This document shows positions 16,580 to 20,507 of a DNA stretch of 39,472 nucleotides, piece after piece (the first letter of the stretch is position 1; the number at the start of each line of letters is the position of its first letter). The notes under the pieces are model-generated. The model worked only from the letters and a program-made list of their open reading frames with translations. It did not search any database and was not told where the DNA came from. The translations under genes were made by a program, and so were the position numbers. This DNA is from Deltaproteobacteria bacterium (GTDB lineage: Bacteria; Myxococcota_A; UBA9160; UBA6930). Where the stretch lies: positions 1 to 39,472 of the forward strand of contig JAJDAR010000329.1 in the NCBI GenBank assembly GCA_029261775.1. The letters run 5' to 3'.

Positions 16580-16758
16580 CGGGGACCTCCTCGCAGACCG
16601 CTGACCGTCTCCCGGGGCGGGGAGAGTCGCAATGATCCGCGAGCAGGCCTCGGAGGTCAAGCCCGGAGCACCCCGAAACCTCTTTGTTCCCGAGGGTTTG
16701 GACCGGCGTGAAGATTCGGCGGCAGCGGGACGTCGAAGGGTGATAGGAGGACTCGAAC

Positions 16759-17136
16759 ATGAGCCGACCCACCCTGACCCGACGCATCCTTCGAGGCGGC
16801 CTGGCCGCCACCTGCTCCCTGGGCCTGCTGCTCGCCGCGACTGCGGCCAGTGCCGGCCACGGCGATCGCGGTGACCGCAACCAGCGCCGCTATCGCGTGT
16901 ACGACCACGGGGATCACTGCAACAGCCGCTACGAGCGCCGCCAGCACCGGGGGCACGGTCACCATCGCGACCGCTACGAGGCGCGCCGCGACAGCTACAC
17001 GTGCGGCCCCTGCAACCACCGCTTCGATTCCCGACGCAAGTTCCACCGCCACCTGACGAGCCACCACCACGTCCCGCTCTTCGCCCTGCCCTTCGTGATC
17101 GTGAAGAGCACCCTCGGCTGGATCTTCCACGGCTGA
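16759..17136 (+). CDS. Small exported His/Arg-rich protein containing a classical C2H2 zinc finger
   Basis: TAGGAGG Shine-Dalgarno; signal peptide ending ATAASA; YTCGPCNHRFDSRRKFHRHLTSHHH fits C-x2-C-x12-H-x3-H. Confidence 0.75.
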   Translation: MSRPTLTRRILRGGLAATCSLGLLLAATAASAGHGDRGDRNQRRYRVYDHGDHCNSRYERRQHRGHGHHRDRYEARRDSYTCGPCNHRFDSRRKFHRHLTSHHHVPLFALPFVIVKSTLGWIFHG

Positions 17137-17166: not shown

Positions 17167-19029
17167 CTAGGGATCGGCGGTCAGCACCGCGCCCGCGAGG
17201 GGCTCGATCAGCGAAGCCCAGCGCCGATCCGCAGCCACGTACCGACCCAGGAAACCGAACCCGTAGGTCGTGACCAGGGCGTCCGGACAGGACGGCAGCG
17301 CGGGGCAGAAGTTGCTGAAGGCAGCATGCCCCGCGCCGAGGATCTCGACGAGGAAGCGGGGTGCCGCGGACTTGTCGAAGACGGGCATCTGATCGGTCAG
17401 GAACGGCGTCGTCGTGTCGACCTCGCCGCCCTGGATCATGATCGGCACCGCGAGCGGAAGCTGGGGATCGATGAAGTTCGCCACCGAGTCGTACTCGGGT
17501 GCGAGCGGCAACGAGGCACGGAAGCGTGCATCGAGGGCGGGCACGCGGATCGCGGTCATGCCTCCGAAGGAGTGACCCGCCACGCCGATCCGATCGACGT
17601 CCGCGAGGCCGTGGAGAGGCGACAGCGGGTCGGCACTCTCGGCCAGCAGCCAGTCCAGGCTGCGGCTCACGTCCGTCGGCCTCTCCAGGAACGACGTGAT
17701 CAGGTTCGTCGGGTCCGCACAGGTGGGTCCGGAGACGTTGGGCGGGTGGGTCATCCCGACGACGACGAAGCCCAGGCGGGCCAGGTCCGCCGTCAGGAAC
17801 AGGGTCTGCGTCGGGATGCCGCACGAGCCGTGGGAGAAGAGCAGCACCGGGAGCTCGGCCAGGCCCGGCGCGACGGGCGCGCCCGGAACCCCTCCCAGGG
17901 CTGCGTCCGGCGCTGCGGTCGAGTCGGTCGGGTACCAGACCGTCAGATCGAGGACCCGGGCGTTCCCGAGCGGACTCGTGAACGCGATCTGGTCGAGCTG
18001 GACGCCCGCTTCGAAGGGACCGATCGCATCCGGGAAGAAGCCGCCGCGATCGACGGTGACGGTGTCGAAGCCGACGGCCGTCCCTCCGGAGGCGGCGAAG
18101 CGCTTGATCGAGATCGTGTTGCGGCCCGGAGGCAGGCCGCCGACCGGGAGGACCGCCGTCGCGCCGTCGGCAGCGAGCTGCAGGTCCGCCGTGAGATCGA
18201 CGAGCTGGGGTGAGACGTCTGCTGCGTCGAGCCCACGCGCCAGCGTCGCCTCCACGGTCTCGCCTGCCTGAAGCGCGGGCGAGAAGGACACGTCGACCTG
18301 CACGTCCGGCGCGAAGATCAGCTCCCCCTCGCTGGGAGAGGTGATCGTCACCGGGCTCAGGAAGCAGGAGAGCAGCAGCGGAGCCGCGAGCACGAGCCAT
18401 CGCGGGGCGCCTGTGAAACGCCGGGAGCGGAACGCGATCGCGGCGAGGCCGAGCCACGCAAGCAGCGATGCAGCGGGCTCGGGCACGACGGCGAGATCGT
18501 CGAGGAAGAAGCTGGTGGCCTGGGGGCCGGCGCTCACACGCAGCCCCACGATTCCCGGCGCGTCGAGACGAACGCGCTCCTGGGGAAAGCCGCTTGCGCC
18601 TGGAGTCGGCAGACCGACCCATTGCGCGATCCGCTGATCCAGGGCGTCGAAGACTTCGACGACCAGCGCCTCGCCGCGCAGGCTGGTGAGCGAAAGCTCC
18701 AGCCCGGACACCGGTTGCTGGAGAAGAACGTGGAGGATCGGGTCGAAGAGATTCACGACGCCCCGATCGCCCGACGTGGCGATCGATCCCGCCGGCACGT
18801 CCCCGGGAACCGCGAAGCCGACGAACGCACCGAGCGTGGTCTCGTCCAGCACGGCCGAGGGACTGAACACGAACGGGTCGAGCGACTCGAGGGACGGATC
18901 GGTGAACACCGCCAGGCTGTCGAAGTCGAGCAGCGGCGCCGCTGACGCGGCCCGACCCGTCAGCGCGAGCAGCATCAACAGCAGAAAACCAGCAAAAGCG
19001 TGACGTCGCATGCAGAATCCTTGACCCAT
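17167..19029 (-). CDS. Chimeric exported protein: PEP-CTERM-type N-terminal module + lipobox + alpha/beta hydrolase (dienelactone hydrolase/PAF-AH-like)
   Basis: N-terminal signal MRRHAFAGFLLLMLLALTGRAASA (alternative ATG at 19011); internal VPEPAASLLAWLGLAAIAFRSRR; then RWLVLAAPLLLSC; then LLFSHGSCGIP and GVAGHSFGGMTAIR. Confidence 0.75.
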   Translation of the reverse strand: MGQGFCMRRHAFAGFLLLMLLALTGRAASAAPLLDFDSLAVFTDPSLESLDPFVFSPSAVLDETTLGAFVGFAVPGDVPAGSIATSGDRGVVNLFDPILHVLLQQPVSGLELSLTSLRGEALVVEVFDALDQRIAQWVGLPTPGASGFPQERVRLDAPGIVGLRVSAGPQATSFFLDDLAVVPEPAASLLAWLGLAAIAFRSRRFTGAPRWLVLAAPLLLSCFLSPVTITSPSEGELIFAPDVQVDVSFSPALQAGETVEATLARGLDAADVSPQLVDLTADLQLAADGATAVLPVGGLPPGRNTISIKRFAASGGTAVGFDTVTVDRGGFFPDAIGPFEAGVQLDQIAFTSPLGNARVLDLTVWYPTDSTAAPDAALGGVPGAPVAPGLAELPVLLFSHGSCGIPTQTLFLTADLARLGFVVVGMTHPPNVSGPTCADPTNLITSFLERPTDVSRSLDWLLAESADPLSPLHGLADVDRIGVAGHSFGGMTAIRVPALDARFRASLPLAPEYDSVANFIDPQLPLAVPIMIQGGEVDTTTPFLTDQMPVFDKSAAPRFLVEILGAGHAAFSNFCPALPSCPDALVTTYGFGFLGRYVAADRRWASLIEPLAGAVLTADP

Positions 19030-19145: not shown

Positions 19146-20507
19146 ATGGCCGCACATCCCTTCTGGGGCTGCGCGGGCCTTCGCACGCTCGCGGCGATCT
19201 GGATCGGCATGCTGGCCGTTCCGGGCATTGCGGGCGCCTCCGAAGACCAGCCCGCGAGCGAGACGACACCGATCCTCGAGCACCTCCTCGAGCAGGTCGC
19301 CGCGCACCGCGGCGTCGCGAAGCCGCCCACCCCGCGCCTGCGCGTCGTCAGCGGCTCGGAGCTGACGGAGCTGCTCCGCACCCAGCCCTTGAAGGAGCCG
19401 GCTCGCAGCCTGGCCCTCCGACGCCAGGCCCAGCTGGAAGCGCTGGGCCTGTGGCCTGCGACCTTCGACATCCTTCGCGCCCTGTCCGACGAGGTGCCCG
19501 CGGCGGCACCCGCCGGCTTCTACGACCCCGACCTCGAGACGCTCTACTACGTCGTGTCCGACCTGCCGGTCCTGAACCGGCTGCGCCGCTTCACGCAGCG
19601 TCGCGACGAAGTCTTGACACACGAGCTGATCCACTACTTCCAGCACCGCACTCGGCCGGAGCTCTTCGATCGCGCCGAAGAGACCCGCTGGAGCCTCGAC
19701 CTCTCGCTCGCCGTGCACGCGCTGATCGAAGGACAGGCGAGCGTCCAGGCGTCTCGCGTGTTCGGCTTCGATGCCAGCTGGAGCGCTTCGGCCGGGATCG
19801 GCGAGGAGGACTTCTGGGCGCCGGTCCCGGCCGATGACGCCGGACCGCCGATCGTGCTGCGGATGTTCTCGTGGTTCCCCTACGTCTTCGGTGCGCGCGA
19901 CGCCGCCTTGAACGGAGAGCTCTCCTGGCTGCTGATGCCAGCGTCGACGGAGCAGCTGCTCCACGTCGAGAAGCGCTTCGATGCCTTCTCCAGCATCGAT
20001 CTGGGTCGCGTCGGTTTCCTCGCCAACGGGTGCGAGGTCGTTCACGAAAGCACCGCGGGCGAGCTGCTGATCTCGGTGCTGTTCCGGGAGCTCGGTGCCA
20101 GTGCGCTGCCCGAGCCGGGCGGCGTGGCCTACCAGGAGCAGCTCCACTACCGGGCTCGCGCCTGGGAGGGCTGGGACGGGGACCGCTTCCTCGTCGGCCG
20201 ATGCGATGGACGCCCCGAGCTCTACTGGCTGACGCTCTGGGACAGCGAGCACGACGCCTTGGAGTTCGAGGAGGCGTACCGCGGGATCGCCGAGAAGGCG
20301 AACCGTCGCGCGGGCCGGACGGAGCCGCTGCGCATCCACCGCGAGGGCCGCCGGGTCGAGATCCACTCCCCCGGTCTGGATCCGATGGCCACGCAGCTCG
20401 GCGCTGGCGCGCGCGTCGTCCGGACCTCCACCTACGACGAGGTCACGGCGGTCCGGCGCATCGGAATCGCAGCGGCCCGACCGGACGGAGTGCCGGGGCG
20501 ACCCTGA
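19146..20507 (+). CDS. Exported HExxH metallopeptidase-like protein
   Basis: N-terminal signal segment; RRDEVLTHELIHYFQHRT; downstream AVHALIEGQASVQA (candidate third ligand E). Confidence 0.75.
   Translation: MAAHPFWGCAGLRTLAAIWIGMLAVPGIAGASEDQPASETTPILEHLLEQVAAHRGVAKPPTPRLRVVSGSELTELLRTQPLKEPARSLALRRQAQLEALGLWPATFDILRALSDEVPAAAPAGFYDPDLETLYYVVSDLPVLNRLRRFTQRRDEVLTHELIHYFQHRTRPELFDRAEETRWSLDLSLAVHALIEGQASVQASRVFGFDASWSASAGIGEEDFWAPVPADDAGPPIVLRMFSWFPYVFGARDAALNGELSWLLMPASTEQLLHVEKRFDAFSSIDLGRVGFLANGCEVVHESTAGELLISVLFRELGASALPEPGGVAYQEQLHYRARAWEGWDGDRFLVGRCDGRPELYWLTLWDSEHDALEFEEAYRGIAEKANRRAGRTEPLRIHREGRRVEIHSPGLDPMATQLGAGARVVRTSTYDEVTAVRRIGIAAARPDGVPGRP

Follow-up and report, generated by a model that had tools for sequence, protein, structure and literature searches.

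Within cells, C2H2 zinc fingers of classical spacing are linked to the binding of nucleic acids. Ros has a shorter Cys-His spacing and lacks a signal peptide, and RcnB (PF11776) is small and exported, and its linker is rich in His, Arg and Asp. The DNA-binding domain of Ros spans 58 residues with a beta-beta-beta-alpha-alpha topology (PMC5745721). In ZrgA, a disordered His-rich loop provides 4–5 mostly low-affinity zinc sites (PMC9820375).

A gene in the window, by which we mean the whole 39,472-nucleotide stretch of DNA that was analysed, encodes a 125-residue protein (Table 1) whose finger, YTCGPCNHRFDSRRKFHRHLTSHHH, shares with eukaryotic-type C2H2 fingers (zf-C2H2; ADR1, 1paa/2adr; the archaeal virus protein AFV1p06, 2lvh) the C-x2-C-x12-H-x4-H pattern, an aromatic/aliphatic core and a predicted beta-beta-alpha fold. 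Unlike those fingers, the family to which it belongs is predicted to be exported and has a single finger, a His/Arg-rich linker, variable DNA-contact residues and a unique GW-x-F-x-G extension. The zf-C2H2_4 score of the single protein, 13.6 bits, lies below the Pfam cut-off of 27, and the family profile hits C2H2 fingers of known structure (PDB), for example 2adr at 4.8e-7. Ros/MucR is likewise a bacterial zinc finger that tolerates a change of the second ligand (to Asp there, to His here), whereas the X12 spacing, the predicted N-terminal signal peptide and a different extension, in a 54-residue module whose predicted order is beta-beta-alpha followed by alpha-beta-beta, set the present family apart; Pfam and NCBIfam scans gave no Ros/MucR match. 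ZrgA and ZnuA are also exported with a disordered His-rich segment able to bind extra zinc, but their fold and size are different and they are encoded with ABC transporter genes, whereas the finger gene stands alone. Pfam scans gave no ZnuA match for the finger protein or its group, and the annotated flanks contain no such transporter. The C-terminal domain is unrelated to that of RcnB, and PF11776 was detected in 0/41 genomes of the group, with two control genomes positive. No Pfam or NCBIfam family covered the group in these scans, and a literature search on periplasmic, secreted or exported zinc fingers returned nothing relevant. This is a conserved C2H2 family, predicted to be exported and apparently undescribed, in which a known fold occurs in a new setting with a C-terminal extension of its own.

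Table 1 Features of the finger gene and its product, in window positions
Feature	Position	Strand	Basis
Exported C2H2 zinc-finger protein gene (export predicted), 125 aa + stop	16759..17136	+	translation; homologues from 28 further genomes in the order; dN/dS
Shine-Dalgarno TAGGAGG, 8 nt before ATG	16744..16750	+	sequence; GGAGG-type site at similar distance in most homologues
Signal peptide (predicted), residues 1-32, cleavage ASA/GH (...ATAASA/GH), with twin Arg TRRILRG	16759..16854	+	hydrophobic 12-mer, mean KD 2.08
His/Arg-rich low-complexity linker	16855..16992	+	every full-length member has one
C2H2 zinc finger, residues 80-103, C-x2-C-x12-H-x4-H	16996..17067	+	(near-)invariant ligands; AlphaFold2 beta-beta-alpha; profile match to PDB C2H2 fingers
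Zinc ligand Cys82 (predicted)	17002..17004	+	27/27
Zinc ligand Cys85 (predicted; His in L013, L040)	17011..17013	+	25 Cys + 2 His of 27
Zinc ligand His98 (predicted)	17050..17052	+	27/27
Zinc ligand His103 (predicted)	17065..17067	+	27/27
C-terminal extension, residues 104-125, ending GWIFHG; predicted helix + beta-hairpin	17068..17133	+	residue conservation; two AlphaFold2 runs

Spurious open reading frames are common in high-GC DNA, and a 157-residue antisense frame (window 16657–17130, minus strand) covers the finger gene, with similar antisense frames open in many homologues. That the finger gene is itself a chance ORF or a non-coding stretch has practically no likelihood, and this reading was rejected on the strength of the homologues: the protein is conserved in 29 genomes, its ribosome-binding sites are conserved and its third-position GC is 0.88. 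Selection on the core is evident from dN/dS values of 0.10–0.36 among four close congeners (G000, G002, G003 and G004), with values of 0.49–0.88 for pairs that include the more diverged G001. The substitution pattern and the ribosome-binding sites favour the sense frame over the antisense one. Rfam models gave no hit in the region. The Shine-Dalgarno sequence, previously called unusually strong, is strong, but this is usual for the gene across relatives: GGAGG-type sites precede most homologues.

Homologues were aligned as 15 and then as 26/27 sequences, and the residue counts given here are taken over 27 aligned members. The ligand columns are the most conserved of the family. A C-x2-4-C-x12-H-x3-5-H spacing with (near-)invariant ligands is found in the 27 members, and the core positions are equally constant, with F/Y/W after the second Cys (column 18) and F/L/V six residues beyond that aromatic (column 24), each in 27/27. 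The members from G041 and G015, truncated where their contigs end, show these ligands too when read by eye. Shuffling the mature protein produced the pattern in 14 of 200,000 trials. Judged from these sequences, the Cys/His match is not due to chance and the finger family is real. The first-pass annotation had described a finger of classical spacing distinct from Ros/MucR, which the (near-)invariant ligands bear out, and had named loss of the Cys/His pattern in homologues as grounds for abandoning that description; the pattern held across homologues. Its C-x2-C and X12 elements stand. Its H-x3-H element does not, because the last ligand is His103 rather than His102 (position 102 is His in only 8/27), which gives H-x4-H; on this assignment C-x2-C-x12-H-x4-H is still the classical eukaryotic spacing.

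The only ligand change seen was Cys85 to His, which occurred in two lineages. The proteins concerned, L013 1249–1779 (CKPH) and L040 985–1644 (CADH), would be natural Cys-His3 fingers. A eukaryotic finger whose second Cys is exchanged for His keeps its tetrahedral coordination (PMC5745721), and the Cys85-to-His change is compatible with zinc and not with disulphide or redox chemistry. This bears directly on whether the protein could be a thiol-redox protein, a possibility raised by the CGPC of P0001 and two congeners, which is the thioredoxin active-site tetrapeptide, and by the CxPC of most members. We regard that as highly improbable, since the second Cys gives way to His and CxxH in these two members, the two His ligands are as conserved as the Cys, and neither AlphaFold2 run predicts a thioredoxin fold. 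Predicted fingers, in one account (PMC11241148), need not always bind zinc; we infer that this one does.

AlphaFold2 modelling, which had been proposed as a check, was performed twice, once on a 54-residue core with 27 sequences and once with the distant member L030 heading the alignment, and both models contain a beta-beta-alpha finger. In the first (mean pLDDT 77.9), the finger comprises strands 8–11 and 16–18 and helix 21–32, and the extension comprises helix 36–42 and a hairpin, 43–46/49–52. The second shows the same topology at a mean pLDDT of 65.4, with the extension less certain; the finger blocks reach about 78–86 in the two runs. The predicted structure is accordingly described as a beta-beta-alpha finger with an alpha-beta-beta extension. 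Top Foldseek matches in the PDB include AFV1p06 (2lvh) and the H-x4-H finger of ADR1 (1paa), and GAGA factor (1yui) is also among the fold matches; the E-values do not reach significance, as is expected of such a short chain.

The signal-peptide-like N-terminus and His/Arg-rich linker are present as first described, and an N-terminal hydrophobic 12-mer with a mean KD of at least 1.88 was found in 26/26 full-length homologues, followed in nearly all by an AxA-like site. Export across the inner membrane is predicted on this basis. A Tat route was considered and rejected: the Tat signal TIGR01409 matched in one member, and the twin Arg of the window protein, TRRILRG, is not conserved in its closest congeners, so that Sec is the likelier route. 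Among the full-length members the linker measures about 41–198 residues with 5–27 His, lengths that are approximate as the cleavage sites were set by a simple pattern. These features weigh on the possibility that the N-terminus does not work as a signal peptide and that the protein is a cytoplasmic nucleic-acid-binding regulator. C2H2 fingers elsewhere mostly bind nucleic acids, and DNA binding is possible for a lone finger flanked by basic residues, as in GAGA factor, one of the fold matches. We nevertheless consider a regulator very unlikely, given the hydrophobic segment in every full-length member and the variability of helix positions -1, +2, +3 and +6 (2.4–3.2 bits), which implies that no conserved DNA sequence is read and argues against sequence-specific DNA binding. 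The earlier expectation that the protein would not be a transcription factor agrees with both the predicted export and the varying contact positions.

DsbB was detected in 9/41 genomes and VKOR above cut-off in 3/41, and neither in G000, all figures being drawn from incomplete draft genomes. Since these enzymes were detected in only a minority of the genomes, a reduced zinc-thiolate Cys pair outside the cytoplasm is plausible. As a separate observation, disulphide formation in the lineage may be absent or may proceed via unknown enzymes, DsbB and VKOR being undetected in most of the 41 relatives.

The extension of about 22 residues is also conserved, with G120 in 26/27, G125 in 24/27, a Trp, and an aromatic F/Y two residues before G125, so that the extreme C-terminus is among the best-conserved parts outside the ligands; the overall pattern reads [IV]P...[hydrophobic pattern]...GW-x-[FY]-x-G. 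The hydrophobic tail originally noted is a feature of the window's genus, where it is strongly hydrophobic, and not a conserved trait of the family: GW-x-[FY]-x-G is retained, whereas mean Kyte-Doolittle values are negative in L013, L038, L039, L041 and L042. A membrane-anchor reading of the tail was rejected, since members from f11 and f2 have a polar one. The strong conservation of this terminus, and a C-terminal module of fixed size behind a linker of widely varying length, would suit a zinc-stapled adaptor, in which the GW-x-F-x-G end would attach the mini-domain to a specific partner in the envelope and the linker would be a mere spacer. No consistently adjacent partner gene was found, and we consider an adaptor of this kind distinctly unlikely. 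The best candidate is an Oxygenase-NA gene (PF09859), which immediately follows the finger gene in the same orientation in five genomes from four families (G008, G012, G014, G017 and G023), and whose presence is uncorrelated with that of the finger gene across 80 genomes (13 with both; Fisher p = 0.64). An operon with this gene was therefore rejected, and the arrangement is read as ancestral synteny. The loci showing it are L054 162–1352 (27-bp gap), L049, L053, L065 and L066.

The neighbours otherwise differ by family and include an acyl-CoA dehydrogenase pair, BolA, Hsp20, a CaiB-like gene, SdhAB, Mla genes and a methyltransferase. These are housekeeping genes, with no link to metals in any of them, and give no functional clue. 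Of the homologue search and context analysis suggested at the outset, the former was therefore productive (28 other genomes) and the latter silent as to function. In the annotated flanks, no metal-transport or metal-regulator gene is conserved near the finger gene, and inspection by eye of the aligned upstream regions revealed no recognisable metal-responsive operator. An effector role, also proposed at first, finds no support: no secretion-system or toxin genes occur among the annotated families of the flanks examined, and the gene is single-copy with a neighbourhood conserved within families.

A protein search of 40 relatives recovered homologues in 14 other genomes. With a profile of the C-terminal module the family was found in 28 of the 80 genomes of the order, or 29 with a wider alignment, always in one copy, and was not found in the 11 other genomes of the class. 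Profile searches of the rest of the sampled phylum yielded no true homologue, a weak match from elsewhere in the phylum (L043) being spurious, and the family was not found on the plasmids, in the phages or in the viral contigs searched. Scanning named genomes with single-protein patterns gave no match; congener patterns identified three draft MAGs (JAFDCZ010000055.1, JAAELW010000415.1 and NYZB01000234.1), titled Deltaproteobacteria bacterium or bacterium. Other phyla were covered by close-relative patterns only, so the restriction to the order holds within the sampled phylum. The hosts appear to be uncultured marine bacteria, the marine origin being read from isolate names.

In the cell envelope, the family probably has a role in zinc handling or in binding charged material. 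We infer a periplasmic or surface location and a metal-buffering function. A Sec-type signal peptide would take the protein across the inner membrane, leaving a mature protein with a cationic, disordered tether rich in His and Arg and, at its C-terminus, a mini-domain in which the beta-beta-alpha finger would be stapled by one Zn(II) and continued by the helix-hairpin ending in GW-x-F-x-G. The protein may then handle a divalent metal, probably zinc, with the tether binding several loosely held ions and the finger forming a fixed, folded, high-affinity site, so that the whole could act as a zinc buffer or chaperone. An exported metalloprotein serving as an envelope Zn(II) buffer or chaperone is our tentative preference, held at somewhat less than an even chance. 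It is favoured by the conserved ligands, the tolerated Cys85-to-His exchange, the C2H2 profile match, the modelled beta-beta-alpha fold, the signal-peptide-like N-terminus and His-rich linker in every full-length member, the analogy with the ZrgA loop and the scarcity of DsbB/VKOR. It is weakened by the lack of metal genes nearby and of an operator, and by the fate of an association with ZnuA-type binding proteins, which occur in 23/29 genomes with the finger gene and 24/51 without it (p = 0.005); the association was lost on stratification by family (p = 0.21), and the co-occurrence was rejected as a functional link.

It is further weakened by the composition of the linker, which is as rich in Arg as in His and fits polyanion binding equally well. 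The tether of an exported polyanion binder would bind LPS, capsule, extracellular DNA or peptidoglycan-linked polymers, with the finger and extension as a folded anchor or docking module. A net positive charge of the mature protein in 25/26 members, up to +22, accords with such a role, as does the resemblance of the GW-x-F-x-G terminus to an interaction surface. Charge alone, however, needs neither His enrichment nor strict retention of metal ligands, L004 and L008 have a small or negative net charge, and the DNA-contact helix positions vary widely; we rate polyanion binding as unlikely, though it is the main rival. Gene context, upstream regions and co-occurrence favour neither reading over the other. 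It is possible, though less likely than not, that the family represents a new extracytoplasmic zinc-finger class, in which a classical C2H2 finger with its own helix-hairpin extension and His-rich tether has been adapted as a zinc-gated or zinc-delivering envelope factor of a little-studied, uncultured order.

A conserved, apparently exported family of this kind would mean that the C2H2 fold is used in an envelope setting, and it offers a natural test case of about 50 residues for the survival of a zinc site with Cys ligands beyond the cytoplasm. It also bears on how X12-spaced fingers arose in bacteria and on metal handling in an uncultured lineage. Neither Pfam nor NCBIfam includes the family, and the present alignment would allow it to be added.

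Two further genes of the window deserve mention. A 620-residue ORF (17167–19029, minus strand) resembles two proteins joined in frame, the first a PEP-CTERM-sorted protein (motif at about residues 182–204) and the second a PETase-like hydrolase domain preceded by a lipobox-like LLLSC, with neither a stop codon nor a good internal start visible between the two parts. Two genes from the finger gene, and with no homologue in the relatives' flanks, a 453-residue protein (19146–20507, plus strand) has no Pfam match; its signal-peptide-like start and HExxH motif, HELIHYFQH, suggest an undescribed zinc metallopeptidase.
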